Source of the DNA: Selaginella tamariscina
Lineage: Eukaryota > Streptophyta > Lycopodiopsida > Selaginellales > Selaginellaceae
Length of the DNA stretch: 64,000 bases
Assembly: GCA_003024785.1 (NCBI GenBank)
Contig: PUQB01000098.1
Coordinates: 295,672-359,671, forward strand
Direction: 5' to 3'
The notes below the pieces were generated by a model that worked only from the letters and a program-made list of their open reading frames with translations, had not been told where the DNA came from and ran no database searches. Positions 9,240 through 56,988 of the stretch are shown piece by piece. The translations under genes were made by a program, and so were the position numbers. Positions within the stretch are counted from its first letter, which is position 1. Every line of letters starts with the position of its first letter.

Positions 9240-9279
9240 AGACCCTCTAAACCCTATCGGCTGCAGCATAGTCATCATC

Positions 9280-9700
9280 CGACGGCCACGGTGCCATGGG
9301 ACTCAGACACAATAATGTGAAGAAGCAATCTGATAGCTCGCAGGCTCCAAAATTTAGGACAGACTACTCGTGAGCTACAAGTCTCCAAGTCGACTGCACA
9401 GGCCACTAGTCCTATGCTACAACAAGTACTGCTATTACGTGAGGTAGGGAGTCGCTATGGAACCTGGTCCCAGAAATTGCAAGGGCTTCACCGCGGGCTG
9501 CTCTGTCCTTGGCTGTATATTGCTCCAGCTTTGGTGGCGATGATGGCGCGCGACAGTTTCTGTGGTGGTGCCGCTAATTTGAGGAGGCATAGCTGTTTCG
9601 CAATCAATCCGTAAGGTTCCACATCATCGCATGCAGTTAGCTGTGGCAGTCTGGTCTATCCGTCAGATGCCATCGCATGTTCTCGTCTGTTCCGAAGTAG
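9280..9700. other. Upstream region of the RHS-like gene, no gene seen
   Basis: Moderately GC-rich sequence with only short frames. It ends near 9700, where homology to the flank of the PQQ gene (33411 onward) starts, so a duplication or insertion junction lies here. Confidence 0.5.
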
Positions 9701-16902: not shown

Positions 16903-17195
16903 CTCTCATCAAAAACCTTCCAAAAATCAGCAACGTGGACATAAGTTTATAAAAATTGTGCCACATCAAAAAGATTCTTTCACCATATAATAAGCACCAA
17001 CAGATTTATGCCGGTTTTTTAGTAGTCCTAATTATTTACTACCCGCTCTTCATCAATGCATTGACTCAACCTACAACTGACCACAATTCACAGCTTGAGG
17101 GAAAAAGCTTAGCAACAAGTGCGACACTTGAGGAGCTGACGCCGTGGTAGTGTGCACATGCAACTCAGATTTGCTGGGATAGAATAGTAGATGCA

Positions 17196-18546
17196 ATGGG
17201 TACCCCATGGCCATTTGAAGCTACATTCAATGTTGAAGAGGAAGAGAATGATGTACCTCAGCATCAAACACTTCATATGTTGAGCTCTAACCGACAGCGA
17301 GCTGCAGCAGTCTCTGCTAGTATGTTGTGCGGGTTGGCTTTGGAAAACGTACTCCGAATTGCTATCGTAGCAGATGCCACTTCAGGGCATTTGCGAAATC
17401 AGTGGGTTCGAGACAGGTTGTTACTAAACACGGGCTCATGGGAGAGAGATGTCTACCCTTTCTATAGTGCAGAGGAGTTTTGGATGATCTTCAGGATGAC
17501 CAAAGACACGTTCGAATGGTTTTGCATGGATGTGTTCAAGTCATTTGGCTTTGAGGGCCAGAAGGGCCCGAACTGGAGGGTGATGTCTCTTCAAAGGAGA
17601 GTTGCCATCTTCTTTGCTCGACTTGCATCTGGTGCTTCTGAGTCCACCATTGGCCAGCAATTCCATTGTGATCAAAGCACTGTCAACGTGATAGTGCACG
17701 AGGGGTTGCGCATCATCAAAGAACATTGGTCAGACTTGTTCCTTGCATGGCCAGTTGGTGAGGAGGCCAGAAGAATCAGTGAGGCTTTTGAAGAGTATCG
17801 TGGCTTCCCAAATGTAATAGCTGCAATTGATGGCACGCACATCCCCATCCAAAAGCCAAGTTTAGGGGACATGAGTACTTTAACTATAAGCAGTTCCACT
17901 CAATCAACTGCTTGGCTGCGGTGGACTTGTCAGGTCGTTTTCTTTCCTTAGACATCGGGGTATGTGGCTCATTTCATGACAATCGTGTTTTGAAAATGTC
18001 CAACTTGGGCCGCAGGATTGAAAGCGGACAGCTCCAACAACAAGGATATTGGCTACTTGGTGATACAGCCTTTCATCCTCCAAAGTCCTGGATGATGTGT
18101 CGTACAAGAGGGAGCGTGGACAACTTTCTCCACAACAAAGGCACTTCAACTATGTGTTGAGTGCAACACGAATTATCGTGGAGAGAACTTTTGGACAATT
18201 GAAGGGAAGGTGGCGCATCCTATTATCAAGGATGCAGTCAGATTTGGACACTATTGTGCAAATGGTTGGTGTGTGTTGTACCTTGCACAACATGCTTCTC
18301 CATAGGAATGAGCCAGTGGACATGTGCTGGATTGAGCAACAACGAACTGTCCTTGCTGCAGTAAGAGCTGCTCGAACTGGCCAGAGTTCAGAGCAAGTCA
18401 TTGCAACTGCTGGGTTAAATGAACTAGATGCTGCTGCCATTAGGACAGAGGCGGAGTTCCTAGCACGCTTCAACAACGATGAGGATAACAATGCACAAAC
18501 TGGATGGGACAACAATGCACAAACTGGATGGGACGACGGATCATAG
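17196..18546 (+). pseudogene. Harbinger transposase (DDE_Tnp_4 / HARBI1-like), frameshifted
   Basis: This is the transposase that would cut and paste the surrounding element. An N-terminal helical segment (RDVYPFYSAEEFWMIFRMT) is followed by a helix-turn-helix-like region (SESTIGQQFHCDQSTVNVIV). The catalytic triad is visible: AAIDGTHI (first Asp, about 17820), LLGDTAFHP (second Asp, about 18060) and IIVERTFGQLKGRW (Glu, about 18180). The C-terminal VGVCCTLHNMLLH block is typical. The frame changes twice, near 17868 (after IQKPS) and near 18090 (between AFHPPKSW and YKRERGQLSPQQ). The start at 17196 is the best ATG. A direct repeat near the C-terminus duplicates NNAQTGWD. The protein would be about 450 residues, normal for the family. 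Confidence 0.88.
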
Positions 18547-29230: not shown

Positions 29231-29517
29231 TCTTTTACTTTTTTTTTTAAGTGAAGGGCAATTCCCACTCACCATTAAATTAATTTAAATGGGATTCTTC
29301 TTTTTCTTTTACCTTTTTTCTTAAAGTCTAAGGGGCATGCCCAAAACCGTTAAATTAATCTCTTAATTAAATGGGTTAATTTAATAAAATTTGTTTTCCA
29401 TTGCAACCAATTTAAATTAGACTAATGAGCAACTCTAATGAAAAGAAGTTTCCGTAATAGTCGATATCTTCGTGCTCCATTGGCTACCGTACAGGACTGC
29501 TGCTAAAGGAGTCTGTA

Positions 29518-30390
29518 TTAAACCCCGCTGTCGTGTAACGGCATGACGTCATAATCTGGCAGCCACTCCCATTCCTCCGCGTCAGCAAGACCTCCGATAG
29601 ATTTGAGGCAAAACCATCGTGAGTACGATCCAAAGGTGAACTTACGGACACCCTCAGCTGGCAGAAGGGCAGAGTCTGGTGCATGCGTGAACGGCGAGGA
29701 AGAGCATGTACCTTGTTCTGAAGAAGAACAACTGAGTGATGTTTTGGAGGCGTTGCCGGATGAAATACCAGGTATATATAAGTTTGTGTGTTGTGCGTGC
29801 GTGTAATTGTGTACACACACATATTATGTATCTTCTGTATGGAAACTATCGTACCAGGGTTTCCTGTCTCATGAGATGAACAGGATAGATTACGAGCCTT
29901 CTCTCTCTCAGTTTCCATTATGACAGTGGTACTCGTAACCAGAGGTAACTAAACGGTCGCGGGTATTGGCAAGAAGTTATCAGGCCGAACATCTAACCAG
30001 GAGTTTCTGAAACTTCTCGGGCTGCACTCCTCACTGCTGCTGGGACTTAGGAAATAATCAACGGACCTCACCGAAGACACCACCCGAGATGTGTAGTCGT
30101 TGGCCAAGTCCAATAGGGAACAGTTACTCTCCGCCAGAATCTTCTTCATACAGCGTGTCTTCGTCTCTGTAGACCTGCCATTCCAGTAGCTGAAGAAAAT
30201 CAGATTCAGTTGCAAAAGTATGCCTGCAGTTACCATGCGTGTAATGAAAACTTACCAGGGGAGCTCTTGCGGTGGGTTTCGATTTGTTTCGCTTCCCTGA
30301 CATACTTTCAGCACTCACAGTAAGCACAGGAATTAGAAACCTACTTGGACAGAGCAGGGGGATAAGCATATTCCTGTAGAATCTGCACAA
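29518..30390 (-). CDS. Unrecognised gene X, copy 1
   Basis: I do not recognise the family. Pieces with coding character on the minus strand: MSGKRNKSKPTARAPL (about 30300-30255), a GT-AG intron, then an acidic stretch VYRDEDTLYEEDSGGE. Next is LLDLANDYTSRVVSSVRSVD (about 30130-30060), then SPSSSEECSPRSFRNSWLDV. A final segment, GVRKFTFGSYSRWFCLKSIG then ADAEEWEWLPDYDVMPLHDS, ends at the stop near 29518. Frames change at least twice. A second copy at 41.9-42.87 kb preserves the same blocks, part of it inverted. Ser- and acid-rich segments suggest a soluble plant-specific protein. Function unknown. Confidence 0.4.
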
Positions 30391-30974
30391 CGGTCCATTC
30401 TCCATATATATCAGAAACTATTGAGAGAAGAGGTCAGTTAAATAAACTAGCTTCTTCGTATTTCCCTATACATAGAAAACAAAAATGTTCCAGTTTAGCT
30501 CTTTTTATTTAGCAATTTACAAACCACAACCGTCCCCTTTTCAATGTCAGCTCATTGCAAGCGACCTGAAATTGAAAGTATGTAATATAATATACATACA
30601 CATGTATATATCTGCCATGCCTAATGTTATAACGATAGTTATCAAAATAATAAATTATATATAAGAGAGAGATAACTTGAGACGAGAACCAAATTAGTGT
30701 TAGGTGGGATCCAGTCCCAATATCCTAAGAATAATCTTCAACACTATTGAAGGACAATGATATTATAATTATACTCGCTTTTATATGGTACGTTTATTCT
30801 ATAATGATATGTAAACTAATAAATAATAATTATATAAAAATGTTTTTAAATGATTTATAAGAGCACGATATGGCGTCGTTTGAGGAATGATTTACAAGTT
30901 GAGTATAGAACAAGAGAAATATTTGCCATTCTTGCACGATAGAACGAGGAATCATATCACGATTAGAGTAAATT

Positions 30975-30976
<2 letters not shown>

Positions 30977-31050
<74 letters not shown>
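30977..31050. repeat. (CT)n(AT)n microsatellite
   Basis: About 18 CT units followed by about 18 AT units, then a GT-rich stretch. The corresponding site in the duplicate is at 40455-40525, with different unit numbers. Confidence 0.95.
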
Positions 31051-31052
<2 letters not shown>

Positions 31053-31587
31053 GTGTGTGTGTTTGTGCGTGTGCATGTGTATCATGTGTATGTATAGAGC
31101 TCATATCCTTAGATAGGGCATCCCTTGCCAATCAACGGTCTGGGTAAACCCAGCTACAAAAGTGATATTATATTTTAAAACAGATTTTATTATAATTATC
31201 TAAAGTAACTCTATTTTTTTCCTATGGTGATCTAACACGTCCGTGTAAGAATGTATAAATATAGTATACGCATGTGTGTGTGTAATTTAGTGTATTTGCA
31301 TGTACATAGCCCGTTAATTTATTGTTGATTATTGTTGATTTTTTAATTAAATGTTGATGTTCCTTTTTTTCTTTTCAAAATAAATGGAGCAATATATTCA
31401 ATAAACATCACATTGCTAAAGTTTTATAATTGAACCAGCTAAACCATGTACTATATATAAAAATGTAAAATATAATTTATATATTAAATATTACATTTAC
31501 ATGATAATATATGTGAAAAGCCCTTGAACGAGGGTTTAAAAATCATAAACTATAAGCATGAGAAATTTGCTTGCACACGTCTTGCAC

Positions 31588-32055
31588 ATGTCGAAGAAGT
31601 TCATTCTATTGTTACTCGTTTTAGTGGTTTGTACAGATAGAGTCCAACTACGGGGTAATCTCCTGCGTGAGTGTGTGTGTGATTATATATACTTTGTGTG
31701 TACGTAAGAGATCTTACTACTTGGTGTACTTGGTATCCCTTAGGTTTTATATTCCGTGTAAAACTTGTGTGTGTGTGTGTGTGTGTTATATCTCAATATG
31801 TAATATAACATTTTCTACACAAAAATTTAAATATATAAATATATGAAATCATACAGATATTTATTCAAATTATACATACAAATTATATTATATTATTAGA
31901 GGAATAGATGGATCAATCATGGAGGAGACCTGGAGAACCGTCGATATGCACAAGACCGTGAGATCAACGTCCTCACGGTAGACCGATTAAGCCTACGGTG
32001 GAGATAGCCGACGCTGTTGCAGTTTCAGTATTAACAGGTAAACGATTAAAACTAA

Positions 32056-32087
<32 letters not shown>

Positions 32088-33410
32088 CTACTGCATCATA
32101 TTAACTTAATTGTTTTGTTCATGATTAAATGGTCTAAGCTTTGAAAGGATTTCATCTGTGGAGAGTGAGTTTACCAGTTATAACGGGATACAATGGAACA
32201 ATGGCTAGGACCGTCTAAATGGGTACCATGCATGGACGTCCGATGAACTTGATCCACATCCTTTGTCCCAGATCACAACTTACCAAGGGTAAACGAACAA
32301 AAAAACCCTAATCCCTACACTGCAGTGCTTTCTTGGTGTGTCGTCTAGAGAGGAGCTCACAGAGGGGCAATGCACATTCCAAGGGAGTTTTCATAAACTC
32401 GACCTCAGATCTGGTAGAACAAAATGGAGAACTTTGATGGTACCCGAAAACAGTGGATATCCAGGAGCTGCAGTATGGGGTAGCAGCCCCTGTATAGATA
32501 CACGAAGAAACCTCATATTCGTTGCCACAGGAAACCTCTACATGGTACGTGTGTGCGTGTGTGTTAAGAATAGCACATATACAGGTACCGCCGGAGGTAC
32601 AAAACTGCCTGAATTCAAATGGAAATGCAACAGACTGCATACCGGAATCGGTCTGCCGAGCTTCAGTGGTGGCGATGAATTTGAGGGCTGGCTCAATGAA
32701 ATGGTGGTGGGATTGACATCTGGAGGCTGGCATGCGTTACACAAATGCCTAGGCCTGCGAATTGTCCCAATAGTCCAGGTGTGTATGTGTGTGTACGCAT
32801 GCGTGTGTATATGTATTGAACCTTTTTATTAGGACGTGACTATGACTTTGGGGAAGCACCTATGCTTGTTACTCTCCAAAATCAGTCGTATTCATATAAA
32901 GATATAGTTGTCAGTGGTATTAATCTGGGCTACTGGACAAGTTATATGGGAAACAGTAAGTATATTAATATATTAATCTATTTAAATGAAAATTTAAATA
33001 TGCCGGACCAGGTGGAAACTTTGGGGCAATATGGGGAGCAGCAACTGACGACCGTAGGATATACACGAACATAGCAAACACATTGGCACTCCCATTCCAG
33101 CTTACTCCTTTGCAGGAATATACCACCAGAGGTGCCTGGTAGCAATAGATTCCGCCTGTGGGGAATATTCTGGACGACCGGTCACGTGGCTTATGGACTT
33201 TCTAGTTGGCTCGTTTTGACCGGTGACGGTCATGTGTACGGGCTGAGCACGTATGACGGACGGGTAGTATGGCAGAGTACGACGAGTGCTACGGTGTACG
33301 GAGGGTTCTCTGTGGCTTTTGTTGGGTCGGGATATTCCGTGGCACTTTTTGGTAGCACTCCTGGGAAATCTTTGTTTGCGTTCTGTGCTGGTTCTCCACG
33401 GTGTTATTGA
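31588..33410 (+). pseudogene. PQQ beta-propeller (polyvinylalcohol dehydrogenase-like) gene, copy 1
   Basis: This encodes a secreted PQQ-type beta-propeller protein like the plant homologues of bacterial polyvinylalcohol dehydrogenase. A signal peptide starts at 31588 (MSKKFILLLLVLVVCTD). Exon 2 has the conserved WINHGGDLENRRYA (about 31910-31950). Later blocks are CTFQGSFHKLDLRSG and GAAVWGSSPCIDTRRN to VATGNLY (32370-32545), NCPNSPG, then YDFGEAPMLVTLQNQS (about 32840-32890). These are followed by GPGGNFGAIWGAATDDRRIY (about 33010-33065) and TTGHVAYGLS to GDGHVYGLSTYDGRVVWQST (33175-33280). Introns are short GT-AG. The propeller lost about 90 bp after LSLRWR (about 31998), creating an early stop, and other blades are missing. 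The duplicate at 41.5 kb keeps some of that lost part. No catalytic claim is made. Confidence 0.8.
32058..32087. repeat. (TATC)n microsatellite
   Basis: Seven or so TATC units in an intron of the PQQ gene. The duplicate has (TA)n at the same place (41657-41691). Confidence 0.9.
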
Positions 33411-41180: not shown

Positions 41181-41652
41181 CAAGAAGTTCATTGGTACAG
41201 ATCGAGTTCAACTATGGGGTAATCTCAGTGTGTGTGTGATTAAATATTGTGTGTGTACGTAAGATCTTACTAGGTGTACTTGGGTTTTATATTTCGTGTA
41301 AAACTGTGTGTGTACGTAAGAGATCTTACTAGGTGTACTTGGGTTTTATATTTCGTGTAAAACTGTGTGTGTGTGTGTGTGTGTGTTGTTATATCTCAAT
41401 ATGTAATATACAGTTTGTATGCCTACACAAAAATTTAAATATATAAATCATACAGATATTATTCAATTATGAATTATATTATTTAGAGAATAGATGGATC
41501 AATCATGGAGGAACCGTCGATATGCCCAACGGTGGAGATACCCTGCCGGAGCTGATATCACGTCAACACCTGCAAATACGGCTGTGTAGTATACGCTACT
41601 TCATGGGACGGCTTTGTATTTGCAGTTTCAGTATAACAGTAAACGATTCAAA

Positions 41653-41693
<41 letters not shown>

Positions 41694-41877
41694 ACTGCAT
41701 CATATTAACTTAATTGTTTTGTTCATAACTTCGTAAATTAACTTTACAAAAATAAACTAGTACAACCAACACCACACCACACACACACACAATACTAATG
41801 GTCTAAGTTTTGAAAGGATTTCATCTGTGGAGAGTGAGTTACCAGTTATAACGGATACAATGGAACAATGGCTAGGG
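41181..41877 (+). pseudogene. PQQ beta-propeller gene, copy 2, truncated
   Basis: Only the 5' end of the PQQ gene survives. The signal-peptide exon (about 41183-41215) is cut down to 'aagaagttcattggtacaga'. Exon 2 begins WINHGG at about 41495 and then loses about 45 bases that copy 1 keeps. It goes on to RYPAGADITSTPANTAV and YATSWDGFVFAVSV (about 41540-41630), which copy 1 has lost. After the next intron (with a long TA run at 41657-41691) the gene stops abruptly at 41877 and passes into sequence homologous to 29335, the 3' flank of gene X. It is non-functional. Confidence 0.8.
41238..41370. repeat. 64-bp tandem duplication
   Basis: Two units carrying 'gatcttactaggtgtacttg' and 'gttttatatttcgtgtaaaa', separated by GT runs. 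The equivalent in copy 1 (about 31700-31785) is single. Confidence 0.85.
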
Positions 41878-41969
41878 CAACGCAAAGGCAATGTCCAAAA
41901 CCGTTAAATTAATCTAGTCATTACTTACTTAATTAAATGGGTTAATTTAATAAAATTTGTTTTCCATCG

Positions 41970-42876
41970 CAACCAATTTAAAATTAGCAACTTTAATGAA
42001 AAGAAGTTTCCGTAATAGTCGTCCTCCATGAGCTCCAAATGGACTGCTGTTAAAGGAGTCTGTATTAAACTCAGCTGTCGTGTTATGGGATGACGTCATA
42101 ATCTGGCAGCCACTCCCATTCCTCCGCGTCAGCAAGACCTCCAATACCGGCGACCGAGTTTATTCCACCTCTGGTTACGAGTACCATTGTCATAATGGAA
42201 ACTGAGAGGAGAAGGCTCATAATCTACCTGTTCATCTATGAGACAGGAACCCCTGCTACGATAGTTTCTATACAGAACTGTACTTTGTGCGTACACAATT
42301 ACACGCACGCACAACACAAACTTATTTCAGCCGGCAACGCCTCCAAAACAGCACTCTTCGTCAGGCAGTTGTTCTTCTTCAGACAAAGGTACATCTCTTC
42401 CTCGCCGTTCACGCATGCACCAAACTCTGCCCGGGTGTCCGTAAGTTCACCTTTGATCATACTCACGATGGTTTTGCCCTTTGTACCAGCCGAACATCTA
42501 ACCAGGAGTTTCTGGGCTGCACTCCTCACTGCTGCTGGGACTTAGGAAATAATCAACGGACCTCACCGAAGACACCACCCCAGATGTGTAGTCGTTGGGC
42601 AAGTTCCAACAGGGGACAGTTACTATCCGCCAGAATCTTCTTCATACAGCGTGTCTTCGTCTCTGTAGACCTTAGCTGAAGAAAATCAGATTCAGTATGT
42701 CTGCATGCAAAAGTATGCCTGCAGTGTAATGAAAAACTTACCAGGGAGCTCTTGTGGTGGGCTTCGATTTGTTTCGCTTCCTGGCATACTTCAGCACTCA
42801 CCAGTAAGCACAGGAATTAGGAAACCTACTTGGACAGAGCAAGATGAACTGGGGAATAAGCATATTCCTGTAGAAT
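41970..42876 (-). pseudogene. Gene X, copy 2, with an internal inversion
   Basis: Homologous to 29440-30382. The outer parts are collinear with copy 1 on the minus strand: the LLTRRNGSGCQIMTS-coding block near 42090 and TETKTRCMKKILADSN near 42640. The segment of about 42142-42483 is inverted relative to copy 1 (about 29597-29965), and here its coding sense is plus. Homology to copy 1 stops exactly at 'cctgtagaat' (42876), where the ParB/methyltransferase transposon begins. The function of the family is unknown and this copy cannot make an intact product. Confidence 0.6.
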
Positions 42877-43075
42877 GGGTCTCGGCGAAAAGGAGGCTCC
42901 GGCTCAGGAGGCTTCATATTATTCTAGTATATTCGCGGATATTCTAGGGTTATTCTAGCATATTCTAGCATATTCTCAAGAATATTCTAGAATATATAAG
43001 TTTTTTTAATATGCCGACTGGTTTAATATACGCCGACTGGCTTAATATATGCCACTGGCTTAATAAGACATTATC
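42877..43075 (+). repeat. Left terminal and subterminal repeats
   Basis: The terminal GGAGGCT/CAGGAGGC blocks are followed by five or more TATTCTAG-type motifs (42920-42995). Then come three spaced motifs: TGCCGACTGG, CGCCGACTGG and TGCCACTGG (43012-43060). These directly repeated subterminal motifs are candidate transposase binding sites. Confidence 0.75.
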
Positions 43076-43091
43076 CTAAACCCTAAACCAT

Positions 43092-46000
43092 TTATCCTTG
43101 TAGCACCGGTGGGTCATGAACTCTGTTGCAATTCACCAGCAAACGGTGGACCTCCATGTCACTGAGCGATCGCCTTTGTAGAAAATATGTGACTTCCGGG
43201 TTCAAGCCAAGCACACGGCTATAGACGAAGTACATGTGTACACATGGGCTCCAACTTTTGCTCTTCTGAAATGTAGAACAACTGCATGAAGGATAAGTAT
43301 TAATAGTCACCTTTGCAGAGTCATTTCCTGCCGACACAACGAAAGCCTCCTTCCGTCCTCTAGCTGTCACTTCAACATTTCGCACACAACCTAAAAACGT
43401 CTTGGCCTTGCGGAAATTCTTCTCTTGTTCCTTAGACATTTTTGTTGGAGTCCGAACCATACGTCCTTCGAAAGGTGGAATTGTTGTAGATCCAGCTCCA
43501 CGTGGTGGCGATGGTGTTTTGTCCTTCTGACCCTCATCTACTCTTCCTGCCATCCCCTGTAAACCTTCCAGAACAAAGCCTGCATCCTGTAGTTCTCTGA
43601 CCTCCTCACTTGTCAGCTTCGTTTCCTTGAGCACAGGCCAAACCGTTGGTGGTGTTGGAATCGTGACCGAAGAATTTTGCCGTTTGGCCGCGTGAAACAC
43701 CCTGAATCTTTTGGGCAGAACCACATCATCTGTTGTACATACTCCTCATTCCCCAAGGCATCAATGTACATTCGTTTTCCATAGAATCCTGGTGCTGGCA
43801 CTCTGCTTGGATAACCGATTGGTTTTCCACACAGAGCAGTTCCTTCCTGATTCATCCCCAAACACTTAACCTTACTGGATGCTCCGATTCGTCTGATGGC
43901 CCACTCTGTTTGAGCAATCTCTCTCTCCGAAACCTCTTCGAACCTTAACCTCTTTCTCCTGTTGTTTTGGACCACCCGCTCTGTGTACTCTACATCATGT
44001 CTGTGTGAACGTCGAGCATCAGACTGTTCTGTTCCTGTGACTGTTCTCCTAACAGTTTGCACTCGAACGTTAGTGGTACGTGAACTCCGGGCTGGTCAAG
44101 TGTTCCTCGCCTTCCACCAGATTAATAATTGTTGATGGAGATACACTTTTCCCCTCAGAGAGTTTGCGTTGCACTCGTTTCAACAGAGTTTCCTTCGAAG
44201 GCCCTGACCCTGTATACCTCCCTTCTATTGCCGCTTTCACCTTCGCACTCTGCATAACTGCATCGGTGAGGTCTAACATTGTCGCCTCCAGCAGTGGTAC
44301 TCTTTTGGCCAATCTTGCTCTTCTTGCTCTAGCGTGAATCACTTCAGCATTGTTTGTAGTTGGAACGCTCGCGAGTCCTTCTTCTGTCATGTCTCCCAGT
44401 TCCGCCATGGAGATGTGGTCCTCATGCCTGATCCACCAAGACAGCCATGTCTTCAAAGCTCGAATGTTTGACGCTCGTCCTTCCCAGAAAGACTCGAGAA
44501 TTGCCAGTTGTTCTTTCTTAGATTGTTCATTCAGTGCTGCAGGCCAGGCACGAGCAAGCTTCATGTGTTCTTCGCGATGTTCTTCTGCGATCCATTTCTT
44601 TGTCACCTGACGCACAGATTGCATAAAGTGAAACAGACAGCTTCTTTCCCTCCCTTTCATCTTTGCTCCGTTGTTGAATACTTGGCGCAAGGCTATCCAT
44701 ATCGCTCCAGCCTCATCCGACATGAAACCAGCAAAGTTGACATTCTCCAAACCCTGCTTCTTACAAACCTCTAGCATTGTGTTCAAGAACTTCAGCACTG
44801 CAACATTATCTTCGCGGCACATATCTGCGTAAGCTATAGTCACCATGGATCTGACACTGCAAGAGAGCGTTAGATAACGAAGATTAGAAAGTGTTATGAA
44901 GAGTTTTACAACTTACAATGGGTCATAAAGGTGTATTCCAATTGTCGCCCAGTCTGGTATGCGGTGCGTGTGGTCCAGAACAACCCATTGATCATGAAGG
45001 TCTCCTCCACTTTGACACCTTCTGATGTACTCAACTCCTGAACCCGGTCCCTCAACTGTCATTTTGAAGATCAGAGGCTGCTCCTCAGCACCATGCAGTT
45101 CCATCCCTGGAACATGTATGACGTGAATGAAAGGTATTGGCAGCTTTGTCTTCAGCTCCAGAAGACCCTCGTAACCCTCTCTAAAGTGTGTCTCCTTCTG
45201 TCTTGATTGTGTAATCCAGTCCCGAGTCCTAAAGAAAAGGTCACGTCAGTGTGTAGAGATCTAAAAAAAATACCTTCGATGGTTTGTTAGAGGTTCAAGT
45301 TTTGAGAGTAAACCAGTGTACGAGACTTCTCCTTCTTCCTTGAAAAGTTCTTCAAAGATGAGCTCACGCGGCTTGAAACTCAATCACTCGTTGATTGGTT
45401 CGCGGACTGCTCTTTACCACGTTGCTGACACTAGATCTGGCTCGCTGAACGTTTGAAGCTGACACTGAGGGGCTGACTGGATGCTGATGAACACCTCTGT
45501 GAATGAACACCTTGTAAAAGAAATGTCGTCTGGCAGAATGTAGTACACATAAGCCGGACAAGTGTGCACCAGCAATGGCTCCTCTCCACAATGCTTACAT
45601 TTTATGCCTATTACTTTGCCTGTCTCAGTTGTCTTTGCCTTCTCCACAGCACCCTTGAAGTGACATTCATTTGCTTTCTTCTCAAAAGCCAAGTAGGGGC
45701 AGTAGGATTGATGCATTGGAGATGTCCGACACATGAACTTCGACTGACTCGCGCCGGAACATGCCAGTGTGTTGTGCTCGGGTGTGTCCAATGGTAGCAG
45801 CCATCCTTGCGATTCATCCCCGAGTACTTCTCTGTGCTTTCTGTCTTAGGGGGAAGTTCGAAAATGACATTTCCATTGTATATCTGCGGTAGTTCAGAGA
45901 CTCGTTTAACTTCAGACGAACCAATGAGATCCTTCCCTATCCTACATTTGTCTGCTCTTAGAAGACACACCAGCATGGATTCCTCACGCTCCTCTGTCCG

Positions 46001-46249
46001 CAACCTGAACAACGGGCCCTTTGCCGGGCACAATGTGTAAAAGACAAACTGGTTTGATGCATTGCCTTCTGGTAACAACTCCACATCTTCTCCAGAACTC
46101 GCAGAAACTGACATCAATTGAACCACATGTATACTGAACCAACAAGGAATGTTGAAAGCAATGTGAAGATCATGTTCAAACACAAAAGCATTTCCATCTT
46201 CATCGACTGGGAAATCTTTGTCAATGCCTTCATAGGTAACTCTGGCCAT
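43092..46249 (-). pseudogene. MULE-like DDE transposase with SWIM zinc finger, frameshifted
   Basis: This is the likely transposase of the element. It starts at 46249 (MARVTYEGIDKDFPVDEDGN) and has a Cys/His-rich N-terminal module (CPYLAF, IKCKHCGEEP, about 45700-45560). The DDE core follows: VVLDHTHRIPDW (first Asp, about 44975), FAGFMSDEAGAIW (second Asp, about 44715) with SCLFHFM, and TTNNAEVIHA (Glu, about 44350). Next is a basic region, a CxxxC-type stretch (VKCLGMNQEGTALCGKPIG) and a SWIM finger (CSCSTFQKSKSWSPCVH, about 43285-43235). Two small introns are clear (44857-44915 and 45229-45273). The frame changes near 45795, 45500, 45375, 44090 and 43690. It would be about 1,000 residues. 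Its closest superfamily is MULE; a KDZ-like origin is an alternative I cannot exclude. Confidence 0.78.
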
Positions 46250-46799
46250 GACAACACAAGGAGAAAGCTCGGTGGTTTAGGAAAGCAAAGCAAAAGATTA
46301 AACACACTTTCTCTTACCAAAAAAAAATTACAATCGTTAACAATAAACGTGAATACACGTTTGTATATAATTAATTCTATGCTGCCCAGTTCACAGTGTT
46401 CTTAATGATGTCCTCTCTAGTATCACCGATTTAATTTAATTTCTACCTTTTATGATTTGAAATATCTTCACATTTACCAATTATTCACATATTTTAAAAT
46501 AAACCCTAAATATTAATGTCACATTTATTCCGTAGGGTTCACTGTTTTCATTGCGGCTAGGGTTTTTTGGTAGATAGGGTTTACTGTTTCCATTGCGGCT
46601 AGGGTTCTTTCAATCTCAGATCTGTTTCCACTGCGGTAGATCCAGAGGGTTTCTTTAATCTCAGATCTCAGAGTTACGGTTTCCACTGCGGCGCCATCCA
46701 TTTCGACTCGATTCGTGCAGCGCCCAAGTATAACAATGGAGATTTCTGTGCCGATTTAGATTCTCGGCACCATCCTGCTCAGCCGGCGGCCACAAGGTA

Positions 46800-47720
46800 T
46801 GTGTAATTTCTGTATTTTATGATTTGCTGCTCAAAGTATTTCTTTTTCCAGAGATATAGGGTCTTCTTATTTGTGCCGACTGAGAGCAACGGCACCATCC
46901 TGGTTCAGTCGGCAAACACAAGGTATCGTCGATTTATTTATTTTTTTCCTTGCGGCTCAAGTATACGTGTCACAATGTTTTTTTTTCAGAGTTAATGGGT
47001 CTTTCCATTTGTGCCGACTGAGAGTGACGGCACCATCCTGGTTCAGTCGGCAAAAACAAGGTATTTTCGATTTGTTTTTTTTTGCTTTCTGGCTCAAGTA
47101 TTCGTATCACAAGGTTTTTTTTTCAGAGTTAATGGGTCTTCCCATTTGTGCCGACTGAGAGTGACGGCACCATCCTAGTTCAGTCGGCAGCCACAAGGTA
47201 TGTTCGATATATTTATTTTTTGCTTTCTGGATCATGTATTCGTATCACATTGTTTTTTTTCAGAGTTAATGTGTCTTCTCATTTGTGCCGACTGAGAGTG
47301 ACGGCACCATCCTTCTTCAGTCGGCAGCCACAAGGTATTTTGAATTTGTTTATATTTTGCTCTGCGGCTCAAGTATCCGTATAACAATGTTTTTTTTCAG
47401 AGTTATAGTGTCTTCCCATTTGTGCCGACTGAGAGTGACGGCACCATCCTTCTTCAGTCGGCAGCCACAAGGTATTTTGAATTAGTTTTTTTTTTCTTTG
47501 CGTCTCAAGTATTTCTTTTAAAACAGTTAATGGGTCTTCCCATTTGTGCCGTCTGAGAGGGACGGCACCATCCTATCTCAGTCGGCACCATTATCTCTTC
47601 TTGCCGTCTGACAGAGTCGGCACAAACTATCTCAGTCGGCAGGTTTTTTCTTCTACATCTCTCTGCCGACTGAGAGGGTCGGCAGCATCTAGCTTGAGTC
47701 GGCAGCCACAAGGTTAGTCA
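46800..47720. repeat. Tandem hairpin array (about 137-bp units) in divergent promoter
   Basis: Six units start TGCCGACTGA or a close variant at 46874, 47012, 47149, 47286, 47423 and 47547 (spacings 138, 137, 137, 137, 124). Two shorter derivatives follow to 47710. Each unit has TGCCGACTGA, about 20 bp, then the exact complement TCAGTCGGCA, so it can form a 10-bp-arm hairpin. Between hairpins each unit has a donor-like AAGGTAT and an acceptor-like TTTTTTTCAG. Each unit thus also looks like a small exon with a 65-bp intron leading toward the start at 47790. Confidence 0.88.
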
Positions 47721-47789
47721 TCTTTGTTTGTTTTTTTATTTTGACTCCTCATCAATTGACTTGTGTGTTTACTTTCCAGAGTTCCCAAA

Positions 47790-50700
47790 ATGGTGAGAGC
47801 TTCAAAACGTCTACTAGAGACTGCGCCTGATGAAGAGCCACGGGAAGAGAAGAGGATATCGAAGCAGAAGCGAGGCAAGAGAGGAGAACCATCTAATGTA
47901 CCAAAGGAGGATCCTCCAGTGACTCAGTCTGGAGTAGTAGCAGTTGAGCAAGAACAGCCTCCACCAACAATCACAGATTTCCCGGAGAGCTCGTCGCAGT
48001 TGCCTCCTTCATCCGCTGAGGTTGCAGTCCTGAACGAGCAAGTGCAGATGACAGAGGCAGCTGAAGCTAGCGAGGACGACTTGGAGGAGGCAGTCAGCAA
48101 AAAGAGAGGCCGCGGGAAAGCTGATTCAAAAGGCAAGAAGGCGAAGAGCGATAAGGAGCCGAAGGAGTTATACAGCATACCGGCGAGCCTGCATTTGGAG
48201 AGCTCAGCAAACCTGCTCGACAAAATTACTATCAAGGGACTTGGTGATCCTCCTGATGTGCCCATCTGCAGAATACATTCCAACGAGGTGGTTCGACGAG
48301 TGAACCCAGGGGACTTGGACAGGCTGGTGTCATCGTTGAAGAAGGCTGGTTATCTACGCAACACGGCCTTGTTCATTCTGTCCATCGGAGATCGACTCAC
48401 TGCTGAGGAGCTATCGGAGCTGTCGAAGGACACGATTCAGTACGAGCAGCACCGGTCTTTCGAGCAAGCTCTTACTCAGCCGGAGTACAAACAGTGGGCT
48501 TCAAGGCTCTCAAACAGGAAGTTTAGCTGCTGGGACGGGAACCATAGGCTACAGGCTTTGCAGAAGCTGTACCGAGAGGATGCAGAGGACAACCAGCGAT
48601 GGGCTATTCGCGTTCGATCGAGTTTCATCTCCACGGAGAACCTCGACATTCTTCAACTGGTTTCGATGTTCCAATCGATTAACATGTGAGTATTTTCTTT
48701 TCTTTTTGTTAAGAGTTTAGACTTACAGTTTCGTTGAACAGATCTTCAGCAACATCTGTGGAAACAACGCTACCACATATTCTCCTCGCTGTAAAGGCGG
48801 TCTGCACTAGTACAGAAGGAACTCAGAAAATCCTCGAGTCACTCACGGAGGTTGATCGTCTTGAGGTGCGGAAGTGGAAGGAGAGTTCATCAGGAAAGAC
48901 GGCTTGGCATCCTCTTCCGAACCTGATCTGCGCAAAGATACTTTTCAAGGTAACCTCCGATTTAATTTATAGGAAAGAAATTTTTAACTTGTTCTATGTG
49001 CAGAACGAGATCGACGATGATCTCGACAGAGCAGTCACCAGTGCTAAGGGCAATCCACAGGTTGAGGTGAACCTAAGCAGCTAGTATACAAGAAGCATGA
49101 CAAGCGTATGCACAAGTTCCTCTCCATCATAGACCCAGACTTGGGGGAGGAGTGGTTCCAGAAGGTGACAAACATCTCTCATAAGCAGTGTCGCTGGATG
49201 GGCATTGAGAAGCTGTATGCGATGTCAAGGGCGAAGATTCCAAACATGCTGCGACTCCGATACCTCAACAAGCTCACCCGTCTCGAATCCAAGGCAGAAC
49301 AACAGACACTTGGGCTACCGGGCATGCAGGACAAAGAGTGGATCAAGTGGTTCACCTTGGACTTATATTGGAAGGCTGTGCGCGAGGAAGCCATTCAGAT
49401 CCTTAAGGGGTTGCGAGAGGATGGTGAAGAAGTTGGAACGGATGTCGACTTCATGAGCTGGTTTGACGAGATGAGAATTCGGAGCAAGTGCCTGGTCTTT
49501 CAGCCCTTCCATGACTGCATACGGTTCACTTATTCGATGGAGCCGAATGAGTTTCTGGAGCGTGAGGAATCTGCGCGTCGGATGATATGGAGGTAAGCTT
49601 TCAATCCAGCATTGCTACTGTCTGACTTTGTGTTGCAGGTTCATACTGGCGAAGCAAATGACACCGTCCCATACGATGAAGCTGTGGACAGATCATACAA
49701 GCGAGCCTCACATGTGGTCGAAGAGCAGAGGAGCTCTAACACCGTTCGAACGGGAGCATGTTCCATTCTGGCTCGACTGTCCGTCGCAACAGCCACCAGC
49801 TTGGGAGAGCACACTATTCGACATGCACGCCAATGATCTACCAGCGATTGTTTGGGAGCCAGAAGAAGTAGAGGCTATCAAGAAGAGCAAGATGAAGAAG
49901 ACGGTGCGGAAGACAACTACACCTGCAAAGGGATCGGGAGCGGGACCAAGCTCTTCTACAGCACCTCCGCCGGCATTCGACTTTACAATCAATGAGGTAC
50001 AGCCACTTGTAGCTAGTTTGGACATCAAGGACGACCTGATGACCTTCATCCCGACCCTGGCTGCATCCCGTGGATCCTACGACCTAGCTGTGTGCGACAT
50101 GGAGGAGATGAGCAGGTCTTTCTTCGAGCCAGGTGCTTCCCAGACAGAGGTGTACACCAAGCTCCGAGAACAGGTTGACAGACTACATACGGTTGAGTCA
50201 CAAACGTTGTTCCAGGAAGTGGTAGGTGAATACGGCTTCAACCTCATCATCCTCGACTTGCCCAATGAGCTTGTATATGGAGGTGCTAGCATCAACAAGG
50301 ACATTGTGCAGCTAGATCCGGTGAAGTTTGAGGAGGCCTTGCAGTTCAGTGGAATGCACTTGGCAGCGAGTGGTTTCATGGTCGTCTTCGCGAGTTCTCC
50401 TTCTGTTTCGGCGGTGATTCAGGCGGCTGCAGTAATCAACTTGGAGGTTGCAGGGACTTACAGCGTCTACCGTGCACGAGGCTGGGGATACCGTGACAAA
50501 ATTAAGGTAAGCTAGCTATTCAAGTTCAAGTTTAACTTGGTCTATGTGGCAGGATAACTTGTTAGTTCTCTTGGTGCTGCAAAGCTCTGAGAAGAAGTCG
50601 AAGAGGCCAAACCCTCTGGCGTTGACGAACACGATCCTCGTCGACACTGCCGACCGTTATCAGGAGGCTTGGTAAGGAAGTGCTTTGCTATGTTTATCCT

Positions 50701-51015
50701 AATGGAAGATTGTGCAGGATTATGATTCAACCGAAGAGTGTTCGACTCATGCAGCTTTTGATCGAGCGTCTCAGTAGACCTGGCGACCTAGTCTGGGATA
50801 TTGGTTCCGGAACCGGGTCATCATTGTTAGCTGCCGTCGAGCTCGGAAGGAATATTATAGGAACCGAGAAGAGTTTCGAACTCTCTAGGTTGGCAACAAA
50901 CAAGCTTGCAGAGAACATTAGACCAGAAGAGTTACCTACTCAAACACCTCCACGTCCAAGCGTAACTGGTGGTTCGAGAACTGCAGCTTTACTTAAGATG
51001 AAGAAGAAACTTTAG
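47790..51015 (+). CDS. ParB-like / amino-DNA-methyltransferase fusion protein
   Basis: Six exons: 47790-48685, 48742-48949, 49004-49592, 49639-50506, 50553-50671, 50718-51015, all with GT-AG introns of 46-56 bp. Total length is 2978 bases; adding one base near 49075, where a single-base loss sits, gives 992 residues. Residues 1-130 are charged and disordered-like. A ParB/Srx-type domain follows: VCRIHS-type strand PICRIHSNEVVRRVNP, DLDRLVSSLKKAGY, and the hallmark CWDGNHRLQALQ (about 48525-48560). The C-terminus is a beta-class N4/N6 DNA methyltransferase: NLIILDLPNELVYGG at the catalytic motif IV site (about 50240-50285), then IQPKSVRLMQLLIE and motif I LVWDIGSGTGSSLLAAVELG (about 50785-50845). 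The order IV before I is typical of this class. DLPN replaces the usual DPPY, so activity is uncertain. Its partner is the divergent transposase gene. Confidence 0.85.
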
Positions 51016-51089
51016 CTAATGTATATTGAGTAATAAATTAAGCTAATATAAAAAAAAATTAAAAAGAAATACAACAGTTTTAATAGAAT

Positions 51090-51211
51090 TCTTTTTTGCC
51101 GACTGAGGCCAATACTGCCGACCAGAAAGAATATTCCAAAATATTCTAGAATATTCTTGAATATTCGAGCCCAGGCCTCCTGGGCCCCAAGCCTCCAAAA
51201 TGGCGACACTC
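51090..51211 (-). repeat. Right terminal and subterminal repeats
   Basis: TGCCGACTGA (51097) and TGCCGACCAG (51116) are followed by GAATATTC motifs, then CAGGCCTCCTGGGC and GCCTCC up to TGGCGACACTC at 51211. These mirror the motifs and order of the left end. Confidence 0.75.
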
Positions 51212-52912: not shown

Positions 52913-54644
52913 TTATGCCATCTCCACAGAGAACACCTTCTCCTCCTCCTCATTGCCAAAGTTGAGGCGCTTAGCACTCACCTCAATACTTGACCTCCCA
53001 AAATACATAGTTATACACACGGCACGGGACCTTCCACGCTCTATACCATCAGAAATGTCCACCTTGAAACTCTCCTCCAGCTTGCAGTTTGCCTCAGTCG
53101 CATATTTTGGATCTATCTCCTCAGAACTGTATAGCTCCAGCGGCAGATAAGCCTGTGTTCCTCTAGAAGGAGAGTAAACCTTCTCAACCTTCTCAACTGT
53201 GAAATAACACGCGCGCGCGCGCACACACACGCCTACCTTGAAATCGTAAGGTACTTGCGAACAAACACATCAAAAACCTTGCTGCAGTGCAAAACACCTT
53301 CTTCATTCAGAAATATGTACTGCAGTGGATCACCAACTTCAAATACACGTGCATATTCCATTCCATAAGTAAGCTTGGAAATCCTCGAGAGCACTAAGCC
53401 AGAGTCAAACCCGAGCATCACAGCCCCGTTGCATATGGCACTCCCCGGATTTGGTGGTACAAAGACCTTCTTCACCTTCTTATCAAATGCTTCCCTAATG
53501 CGGCTTACCAGATACAAGTTGCTGGAGAATCCACCAACTAGGAACATGTACTTGATCTTGTTCTGCGTGTGAGCCAGCTGATCTTCAACAAGCTGAATAA
53601 CTTTGTCTACCTCCGGATCAAAGATTGCCTTCATATCTCCCAAGTTAAGATGAATCTCCTCATACTCAGACTCCTCTCGTATGATGCCGTGTTCTTGGTC
53701 GTAAGCCTTCCAAAGAATGGAGAGCGTCTTTGGAATGATCCAGGTCGTGGTAAAGCCTGAAGATCCGTCAAAGGAGCATTTTGCTGCTGACCACATTTCA
53801 TCAGGCCGGCAACAGAGCTGTCACTTTTGAGATACTCGTGCAAGCATCCAATCTTCTTCTCCAGCAGGCTAAACATGTTCTCATCTACAAACGTCCCTCC
53901 ACCCAATGCTCCTGAACAGATTGAACTCTCATGTACCTTGACACCAAACTTGTATGCCTTCTCATGCATAATGATGTCAATAGTCCCTCCTCCAATGTCT
54001 GCCACGAGGAAAGTGTCTCCCCTCTTGAACTTGACTTGATCACGGAGGATCCTCTGGCAGTAGAACGAGGCAGCTTCTGGCTCAAGCACGATCTTGAGAG
54101 GGAAGTAGCCACTCTTCATGCCGGCAGCTTCTGCAAAGCCCTTCATCTTCTTCTTGGTGGCATCATCCCAGAGAGCAGGAACAGTGATGCACCACTGGAT
54201 GTCATCCTCACTCAAGAACTTACCGTAGCGCCTCATCTCGGCCTTTGCAAAGTCAGAAAGGCACCTGAGGTAGTCTGTCACTAGGGTCTCCACATTGAGA
54301 TTCAAGGGAAGATCTGTGCCCTCAGCTGAGGACGAACTTGAGGCAAGAAGAAGCTTGAACTTGGTTGCAAACACACCGTTCAGATCTTGTGACTTGTTCA
54401 GGAAAGCATTCCATCCCCAATGTTTGAGTGCATAAGTGGATGAAGAAGAAGAAGCGGATGCACTAAAGTAGAACAGGCTTGTCTGAGTCTTGCAGTACGG
54501 AATTGCTCCAGCTTCCGCTTGTCCCGGCCATTCGTAGAATGAGTGGGCATCAAATGGATCGGAACGGTGGCCGAATGCAAATCCGGAGTATGTTGTGCCA
54601 AAATCTACACCAACAACAACCTTGGGAACTTCTGAACAACTCAT
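52913..54644 (-). CDS. HSPA12-like Hsp70-family ATPase
   Basis: An atypical Hsp70/actin-fold protein most like HSPA12A/B. It starts at 54644 with MSCSEVPKVV then GVDFGTTYSGFAFG (phosphate-1 loop). Further landmarks are WCITVPALWDDATKKKMKGF (about 54200), LVLEPEAAS-type KIVLEPEAASFYC, FLVADIGGGTIDI (phosphate-2, about 54010), and KYMFLVGGFSSNLYL (adenosine motif, about 53540). VFVPPNPGSAICNGAVMLGF comes after that. A short intron (about 53163-53236, containing a GC/GT run) leads to the last exon (GTQAYLPLELYSS to FSVEMA, stop 52913). There is one frame change near 53800 between SDSSVAGL and EMWSAAKCSF; otherwise it is complete (about 570 residues). It lacks the canonical EEVD end and SBD of cytosolic Hsp70, as expected for this subfamily. 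The role is probably regulatory or chaperone-like. Confidence 0.82.
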
Positions 54645-54980
54645 ATTGTACGCTATGCTAGAACTTTTGTGTACAGGCTAACACAGACATACGCACGTAT
54701 ATATATGTATCTATCTGCGTTTAAGATGGTACAAACAACGTGAAAGCAAGTTTACTATATATAAAGAACGTGCAAACAAGCAAGTTGCATTAATAATCTT
54801 CATTTTGGCCAAGGGTTCGTTTATAATGGTACTTGGGAATGATAGATTTAGAGTAGACACTGGACTTGTGCGTGCGTGCATATGTGCATTAAGATTTGAA
54901 ATGATTGAGAGAAAGAGAGGGAGTTTCAATAGACGTGTATGACCAATCTTAAACAACATGTGTTGTTTATCTTCTTTTTA

Positions 54981-55127: not shown

Positions 55128-56988
55128 GTGATTGTTTTGGGACAGCGCTACGCATCTCTATTTGAGCTTAAGCAATTGGTAAAAGATGTTGTTGTAGCTG
55201 AAAATTTTGAGTTGAGAAAAATAAAAAATGATAAATTTCTATATACACAGTTGGATGTAACAGAGAGGGGTGTTCTTGGCATTTGCACGTTTCACTCATT
55301 GATTAGGGCCCTACCTGCTCAATCAAAACATTCATCAGTGATCATTCATGTGGTGGGATTGATCATTTCGGGAACAAAGAAGCTTCATCGAGCTGGATTT
55401 CAGACAAGTTTCAAAACAAGGTGAGGGATGAGCCACACGTGACTCCCAAGAGTATAATGGCTGAAATTAGACGAGATCATGGAGTCTCTGTCTCTTACAA
55501 CTTGGCCTGGAAAGGGAAGGAGAGAAAGATGTTTTAGTAATTCATGGGATCATGAAGCTGCATACTCTAACCTAAAAGGTTACAAGATGTTGTTTTTGAG
55601 AAATAATCCCGGCTCTGTTCTAGATATTCAGCAAAATGATACATGTCATTTTTAAAGGCTTTTCTTAGTGTATCATGCTTCCATCTTAGGCTTTCAATAT
55701 TGCAAGCCTCTGATTAGATTGGATGGGACGCACATCAAATCCAGATACTTGGGATGCCTACTCGTGGCAACTATTGTGGATGCAAAAGGGCAATTGTTTC
55801 TATTGGCATTTGTGGTTGCAGATGTTGAGAATTGTGAAAACTGGATCTGGTTTTTGGAGCATTTGAAGAGGCTCATCAACACGAATCACCCATATGCTTC
55901 AACCTACACATTCCTCTCAGATAGACAAAAAGGTGTTCTGGACGTTGTATCTTTGATCTTTCCAAATGCCTATCATGGGTTTTGCATGAAACATTTCTCA
56001 GAGAATTTTCGAAAAACGTTTAAAAATACTGAGTTGGTTCATCTTCTTTGGAATGCTGCTTGAGCATTGACTCATTGTGATTTTGAAGAAGCTCTAGCAG
56101 CCATTCGAGAGAAAGATAGAGCTACTGCTGATTGGATTCTGGCTGCTGCTGAACCAAAGTTTTGGGCATTTGCATGGTTTGAGAGAGACCGGTTTCGGCA
56201 TTTAACCACAAACGTCTCTGAGTCTCTAAATGCTTGGCTTTTGGAAGCTCAAGACAAGCCAATCCTCGCTATGCTGAACATATCCGACAAAAGTTGATGA
56301 GCTAGTTTTATGAACGGAGGACAGAAGGTTTATCAAGCAAATGCAAGGTTGATGAGTTCAAGCTAGTTGACACAGTGGAGAAGATCATTCATGATGCTCT
56401 TTTACATGCAAGATATTATGTTGTCTCACCATCTGATGCAAATGTTTTCGAGATTCAAACAGAGAGTGGTGAACATATCTCAAAGAAGTTGCAGTTGTTG
56501 TTCATGGCAGAGATTGGGATTACAATAGAACCTATATAAATTAAAACCCTCTCTAAATTAAATAAAAATTATGGTCTCACTATATATATTATTATTGTAT
56601 TTTATTATTTTTTACCCTCCCTTATTTAAAACCCTCTCTAAATTAAATATTATCTCTAGTCCCAACATATTTAATTTATACAGGTTCTACTGTACCATGT
56701 ACCCATGGGATTGCAATCATCCTATGGAAAAGGGAGCGTGTTCAGAGTTATGTTCATCCCAGTTTTTTTGTGGATTCCTATTACAAATCATACACGGAAG
56801 TCATTTATCTAATGAATCTTCAAGAGTTGGAAGATGATGATTTGAAGCCTCCAAACACTCGCAAATCTCCTGGACGTCCAAAGAAGAAGCGAGTTTGCAT
56901 AGAGAATGAAGAAGAAAAACGAGCATTTCATTGTAGTCGGTGTGGACAATGTGGCCACAGCCGTTGCACTTGTACCGCAACAATTTAA
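55128..56988 (+). pseudogene. MuDR/MURA-type transposase, broken
   Basis: An N-terminal MuDR-like segment (GQRYASLFELKQLVKDVVVA then ENFELRKIKND) starts near 55128. The MULE DDE core has PLIRLDGTHIKSRYLGCLLV (first Asp, about 55725), STYTFLSDRQKGVLDVV (second Asp, about 55915), HGFCMKHFSENFRK and HLTTNVSESLNAWLLE (Glu, about 56215). A SWIM zinc finger follows, split by the MITE: left half CSCCSWQRLGL, right half PCTHGIAIILWKRE. Then come VQSYVHPSFFVDSYYKSYTE and a C-terminal zinc knuckle (CSRCGQCGHSRC, about 56935). Defects are an in-frame TGA at 56061-56063, frame changes near 55430, 55650 and 56290, and the MITE. No intact product is possible. Confidence 0.87.
56523..56692. mobile_element. 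170-bp mariner-like MITE
   Basis: The termini are CAATAGAACCTATATAAATT at left and CAGTAGAACCTGTATAAATT on the complement at right, with TA on both sides (56521-56522, 56693-56694). Such CAGTAGAACC-type ends with TA targets are known from plant Tc1/mariner MITEs. It has no coding capacity. An internal 'aaccctctctaaattaaat' motif is repeated. Removing it with one TA rebuilds the SWIM finger in frame. Confidence 0.9.

Follow-up and report, generated by a model that had tools for sequence, protein, structure and literature searches.

A methyltransferase-like accessory gene and a shared nine-base motif in a MULE-like DNA transposon of Selaginella tamariscina

Does a methyltransferase-like gene that lies next to a transposase gene belong to the transposon, and if so, what might it do there? 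The question is raised by a locus of the vascular plant Selaginella tamariscina, in which the two genes stand back to back between terminal inverted repeats (TIRs). The locus lies in a stretch of 64,000 nucleotides (assembly GCA_003024785.1, contig PUQB01000098.1, positions 295,672 to 359,671 of the forward strand), which was analysed as a whole and is called the window here; a sequence-only reading of it had proposed a DNA transposon carrying its own ParB-methyltransferase gene. Judged from further copies and from a second family of elements, the methyltransferase-like gene appears to be an integral accessory gene of the transposon and not a chance neighbour. Beyond this we hypothesize, with about even confidence, that the element is a recently amplified MULE-like cut-and-paste transposon whose accessory protein binds the motif TGCCGACTG, singles out its own element and acts on it in a VANC-like manner. 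The principal features, in window coordinates, are as follows.

42877..51211, unstranded: whole transposon copy (family A), 8,335 bp, with edges taken from 20 further copies
43092..46249, minus strand: MULE-like transposase gene, exons 46249-45274, 45228-44917 and 44856-43092; 1,019 amino acids in open copies
47790..51015, plus strand: methyltransferase-like (accessory) gene, exons 47790-48685, 48742-48949, 49004-49592, 49639-50506, 50553-50671 and 50718-51015; 992 amino acids in open copies

What most strongly ties the methyltransferase-like gene to the transposon is a second family of elements in the same genome, family B. It was met in a genome search with the Pfam model PF01555, in which 150 of 739 candidates were scored (150 of 150 above the cut-off): 12 loci fetched from the top of this list comprised eight relatives of family A and four members of family B, and many of the remaining rows share family B's open frame of 106 amino acids. 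Transposase and accessory gene stand in the same divergent order in all three family B copies fetched; the ends of this family are readable by eye, and two of the three copies have target duplications of their own. Over aligned codons the two families are 63% identical in the transposase and 57% in the accessory protein, the family B transposase (1,015 residues) being recovered from a three-copy majority. In a codon comparison using majority sequences for family B and for the family A transposase, the fractions identical at codon positions 1, 2 and 3 were.72,.79 and.39 for the transposase (1,004 codons; four-fold sites.31; nonsynonymous divergence, dN,.29) and.67,.75 and.38 for the accessory gene (851 codons; four-fold sites.28; dN.34); synonymous divergence (dS) was saturated and so not computable for either gene. 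Four-fold sites differ at chance level and positions 1 and 2 are conserved, which argues that both proteins have been under purifying selection since the two families split, travelling together.

The pairing can also be followed through family A and its relatives. A search with the methyltransferase exon scored 135 of 1,920 candidates, and 115 of the 136 exon hits were used (left out were 20 beyond contig C1145 and, for an exon split in two, its second part); they were compared with the ends among those listed, 100 of 190 on the left and 100 of 123 on the right. An exact right end lies at the expected distance for 47 of the 115 hits, and an exact left end for 34 of the 68 hits on contigs up to C681, counts in which exact matching misses diverged ends. 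Ends are thus linked to the exon and the layout recurs in family B, so that the proposal of transposase and methyltransferase-like gene as one unit is borne out.

The edges proposed for the element, 42877 and 51211, agree with those of its relatives. The leftmost 1,124 bp have 40 long matches, among them the copy in the window, and 36 of these start at 42877; 19 of the 20 further family A copies aligned reach 51211 as their right edge. The left edge had been said to coincide with the point where flank homology stops, as indeed it does: the left flank is homologous to a paralogous part of the window, 30014-30382, as far as 42876, one base before the element. The genome (300.7 Mb) contains 190 exact matches to 33 nt of the left end and 123 to 36 nt of the right end; the reversed pattern, taken as control for each, has 0 occurrences. 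The terminal repeats are arranged thus.

42877..42996, plus strand: left TIR, GGGTCTCGGCG...GGAGGCT...CAGGAGGC, then GAATATTC-type repeats
51129..51211, minus strand: right TIR, GAATATTC repeats, terminating in ...AAAATGGCGACACTC

These TIRs are imperfect, and the GAATATTC repeats are common to both ends. That they match each other, as had been claimed, is supported by the pairing of the GGAGGC and CAGGAGGC blocks between the ends, with an alignment score of 26 against a maximum of 22 in 300 shuffles. The other copies and target duplications for which a genome search had been proposed were both found: besides the 190 left ends, duplications of at least 8 bp surround 10 of 21 family A copies (8 of the 10 being 9 bp), and mismatched flank pairs, taken as a control, gave matches in 1 of 420. 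This sole match joins the left flank of copy L028 to the right flank of the window copy, whose own left and right flanks do not match each other; the flanks of the window copy therefore come from two insertions, and it is a recombinant of the two or a misjoin between copies. Because the 20 further copies were those with the highest scores next to the window copy itself, they overstate the youth and uniformity of the family; relatives of family A extend down to 80% identity in the methyltransferase-exon search.

The six-exon structure proposed for the accessory gene holds across the family, with GT/AG splice sites in 21 of 21 copies save for a gap at one donor in a single copy, and its introns measure 46-56 bp. 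Its reading frame is open in 3 of 21 family A copies, that of the transposase likewise in 3 of 21, and one copy has both genes open. The window copy as assembled is not open, some other copies are, and the small indels in both of its genes are absent from most of the other 20 copies. Among family A copies indel columns outnumber substituted columns; the apparent gene damage, that of the window copy included, may be partly long-read error in a young family.

The label MULE for the transposase stands in part. Candidate DDE residues, with a CxxH between the second D and the E, can be read directly and are kept in families A and B, and the C-terminus is like the SWIM zinc finger, common though not universal in MULEs, with E values of 0.011 (A) and 0.026 (B) that both fall below the curated cut-off. 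Target site duplications of MULEs are 8-11 bp long according to the accessible text of PMC6446971, a range that takes in the 9-bp duplications found here. Against the label, the Pfam MULE model PF10551 has no match to the transposase of either family, though it has 113 matches in the same genome. A profile of the A and B transposases compared with the recognised MULEs of the genome gave a probability of 0.1 (20 shuffled controls, 0.1-1.6), the profile being too thin for this comparison. On the duplications, DDE residues, CxxH and sub-threshold SWIM match, we call the transposase MULE-like, short of a confirmed MULE.

Could the methyltransferase gene be a chance neighbour all the same, or a Pack-MULE-style incidental capture that has no role? 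Precedent for capture exists, as MULEs often carry additional genes, pieces of host genes included (PMC6446971, accessible text), but the same divergent pair recurs in family B with silent sites saturated. Scans of viral and of prokaryotic contigs, each made with just two short peptide patterns, confirmed no free-standing relative, and a free-standing phage or bacterial origin of the accessory gene could not be traced in them. We consider capture or chance very improbable; chance neighbourhood was rejected as largely refuted by the codon comparison of the two families. An assembly artefact, in which collapsed or misjoined repeats make up an apparent unit, would account for the two insertions behind the flanks of the window copy and for the excess of indel columns, as long-read errors would give. 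Such an artefact is, however, hard to reconcile with matching target duplications round the unit in ten copies and with the same unit in family B, where it is seen independently; a pure artefact was rejected on these sister-copy duplications and on family B, and we give it the smallest probability of all the explanations weighed here.

If the gene belongs to the element, the arrays between and beside the two genes offer a clue to what it might do.

43012..43058, plus strand: three left subterminal TGCCGACTG-type motifs, one exact and two degenerate, at ~19-bp spacing
46747..47714, unstranded: intergenic array of ~137-bp tandem units with inverted TGCCGACTGA...TCAGTCGGCA, holding 13 of the 15 exact motif sites
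51097..51122, plus strand: two right subterminal TGCCGACTG-type motifs, one exact

The element holds 15 exact TGCCGACTG sites, and none occurs elsewhere in the 64-kb window. In family B the array is built of unrelated units, 39-40 bp long and containing the palindrome CCCAGTCGGCATGCCGACTGGG, but the 9-mer recurs. No other 9-mer is shared so often by the two families: TGCCGACTG has 15 occurrences in A and 21 in B, the next word has 5 and 8, and the best shared word reaches at most 4 in 200 dinucleotide-matched random versions of B. No exact site falls in the coding spans of A or of B (0 in each), the sites being intergenic and near the ends; just inside the ends of family B the motif is exact at the right and degenerate at the left. 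The number of exact sites per copy varies, from 14 to 21 among 21 family A copies and from 13 to 25 among three family B copies; one further exact site lies in the flank fetched with family B copy L041. The 22-bp palindrome of family B has 1,092 genomic occurrences, against 0 for the control. Such a cluster of identical short sites looks like a self-recognition tag. As a separate observation, the array units in 46792-47790 resemble repeated noncoding exons, with CAG before and ACAAGGT after most units; perhaps they make up a 5' leader of the accessory gene in repeated form, which could fold as hairpins as well.

Two regions of the accessory protein bear on its possible action.

48123..48685, plus strand: putative ParB-like region, unconfirmed, with the motif DGNHRLQAL; kept in family B
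50084..51012, plus strand: methyltransferase region, with the variant motif IV DLPN (50255-50266) and the S-adenosylmethionine (SAM)-binding motif I WDIGSGTGSS from ~50794

The proposed class, a beta-class amino-methyltransferase, is sustained at motif I and falls short at motif IV. At the former, PF01555 matches amino acids 898-953, the SAM-binding motif I region, with E 1.1e-8 and 35.8 bits against a cut-off of 26.7; a two-family profile compared with PDB matched MboIIA, DpnA and CcrM over the SAM-binding part (E 0.0008 to 0.003); and in a tblastn search against phage the 20 records listed, out of 82, matched the methyltransferase half only around motif I, over 22-33% of the query. Between the families, motif I is conserved together with its surroundings. 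The catalytic motif IV of N4/N6 methyltransferases is normally DPPY, with the consensus (D/N/S)PP(Y/F/W). Here it is DLPN, in 12 of the 12 in-frame copies of family A (of 21, in spliced reading), in 6 of 12 related loci, namely those whose printed frames cover the motif, and in family B; relative to DPPY the first D and the second P are kept and the aromatic residue is lost, and there is no other motif IV-like site anywhere in the accessory protein. N-methylation of adenine or cytosine by the element, as the sequence-only reading had suggested, is not a safe conclusion because motif IV is DLPN in both families. One methyltransferase-exon match, at G000:C913:36287-37027, lies inside an open frame of 3,141 amino acids, the frames of the other listed rows being at most 364.

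The anatomy of the arrays resembles that of the Arabidopsis VANDAL elements with their anti-silencing proteins, VANC. According to the accessible text of PMC5735166, the motif bound by VANC21 is nine bases long and sits in noncoding tandem repeats of VANDAL21, the element that encodes this protein; tandem duplication is how targets of this sort evolve. A MULE-type element, an extra gene and a nine-base motif arrayed in the element's own noncoding tandem repeats are common to both systems, as far as the available parts of PMC5735166 and PMC10398659 go; in these VANC is not described as a methyltransferase, whereas the Selaginella accessory protein is methyltransferase-like, and in contrast to VANDAL the Selaginella 9-mer is kept between families with differing array units. 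The anatomy appears alike; a likeness of the proteins is not claimed. We propose that a protein encoded by the element would bind the TGCCGACTG sites and so recognise its own element, the likeliest candidate being the accessory protein with its N-terminal region. The methyltransferase half of the accessory protein would act on the DNA or chromatin of the element, either by placing an N4/N6 mark or as a non-catalytic effector that binds SAM, and the outcome would be an element kept expressed or primed for transposition, functionally like VANC of VANDAL. We favour the accessory protein as the binder because it has no other evident way of finding a target and because the protein of the precedent is an accessory one; binding, methylation and the anti-silencing effect are all steps that we infer.

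Several observations weigh against this proposal. The binder of the 9-mer could be either protein, and a transposase site would also account for the copies just inside both ends. If one mismatch is tolerated, A has 22 sites and B 28, of which the accessory-gene span holds 2 and 1. A scored methyltransferase exon (135 of the 1,920 candidates being scored) lies at the expected distance for 34 of the 100 left ends listed, and gene-less or truncated copies may be common. DLPN in both families suggests that catalysis may have been lost. The ParB-like domain of the sequence-only reading is a reading of the G-x-H-R motif and its surroundings, which are conserved in family B; no ParB was recovered from the protein in profile searches of Pfam, NCBIfam and PHROGs or in PDB sequence searches, and PF02195 (ParB_N) had 0 candidates in the whole genome, with a control positive in 11 of 14.

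TnpA of En/Spm binds subterminal and promoter sites and regulates its own expression. By the same token the transposase could be what binds TGCCGACTG, at subterminal sites and, for autoregulation, in the promoter, with the methyltransferase-like protein otherwise employed, for example in marking newly replicated DNA or in aiding transposition. This we regard as a plausible alternative, held tentatively: the motif lies just inside both ends and in the shared promoter region, the usual binding places of a transposase, and the transposase is conserved as well as the accessory protein is. It fits less well that 13 of the 15 exact sites of the window copy are in the intergenic array and not at the ends, or that array length varies between copies, as it does for VANC targets in the accessible text of PMC5735166; and on this view the accessory protein must find its target by some separate means. 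A different doubt concerns the enzyme, which might be a catalytically dead SAM-binding scaffold, its domain retained for targeting or dimerisation, with no N4/N6 methylation. The change of DPPY to DLPN in A, in related loci and in B, with motif I and its surroundings still conserved, is what such a scaffold would show, but the whole methyltransferase region is under apparent purifying selection (dN.37, dS saturated), and the retained first D and second P of motif IV would allow an altered activity; we regard the scaffold, too, as a plausible alternative, held just as tentatively. Unlikely, in our view, is a more specific form of self-marking, in which a centromere-like (parS-like) palindrome cluster (CAGTCGGCA/TGCCGACTG) would be loaded by a ParB-type clamp fused to the methyltransferase, spreading along and marking only the DNA of the element. 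If true, it would be a transposon-borne self-marking system made from prokaryotic partition and modification parts and maintained in a vascular plant.

To return to the VANC-like proposal, an accessory protein that reads its own arrays and modifies the element would make this a plant transposon with a complete targeting-plus-modification module and a defined 9-bp address. Two questions could then be tested directly: do transposons evade silencing, or turn it to use, through DNA marks of their own, and do those of vascular plants bear N4/N6-type modification? With its short known site, the module could be usable as a sequence-addressed tool. Even with a dead enzyme, the same 9-mer in unrelated array units of two families would argue cleanly for selection acting on a site of self-recognition.

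The pairing of a transposon with a ParB-methyltransferase is already known. The sequence-only reading knew of no described element of this kind, and is superseded here by a ParB-methyltransferase gene published, in an account accessible in part, from an algal DNA transposon (Ectocarpus) with a different transposase, Sola-1 there as against MULE-like here. The Selaginella element differs further in its vascular plant host, its variant DLPN motif and its conserved 9-mer arrays, the two being compared by description and not by accessory-protein sequence. Fungal TET/JBP transposons and the SET-carrying MuDR and HarbingerS elements of Phytophthora (PMC12730594, accessible text) are likewise DNA transposons with an enzyme of epigenetic marks, and their enzyme families and hosts differ from those of the Selaginella element. 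The likeness to MboIIA, DpnA and CcrM (PDB 1g60, 5hek and 6pbd) is a weak profile match at the motif I region, and unlike these the accessory protein has DLPN for DPPY, a long N-terminal extension and eukaryotic introns. Phage ParB-methyltransferase fusions (PMC12704722, accessible text) have the same proposed domain combination, of which ParB is unconfirmed in the Selaginella protein. The accessible texts of PMC12704722 and PMC12730594 contain no mention of a ParB-methyltransferase transposon, and the survey of MULE groups in PMC6446971 lists extra genes, with the words "methyltransferase" and "methylase" absent from its main text. In the literature searched, outside of which most subscription papers lie, we met no mention of the MULE-like setting, the vascular plant host, the 9-mer arrays or the DLPN motif, and these are the features that are unmentioned there.

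Some further observations concern the ends and the surroundings of the element. Runs of GAAnnTTCnnGAAnnTTC, the heat shock element consensus, stand inside the terminal repeats at 42980-42995 and 51144-51166. Family A has runs of at least four units at its right end and family B at its left; elsewhere in the window no run is so long, and two runs of three units occur. The transposon ends could be heat-responsive. A rearranged repeat is common to the left flank (41192-42876) and to 29362-32209 of the window, and a fragment of a Pfam-recognised MULE transposase, different from that of the element, lies ~4.5 kb downstream at 55713-56006 (C1370:351384-351677). Light-harvesting genes are present in the genome, one of them matching plant CP24 with E 8e-111. 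Elsewhere in the window, open reading frames resemble by eye a Crinkler-type or ATPase-nuclease protein (7129-9302), a PIF/Harbinger-type transposase (17151-18543) and a divergent Hsp70-type ATPase (53236-54677).

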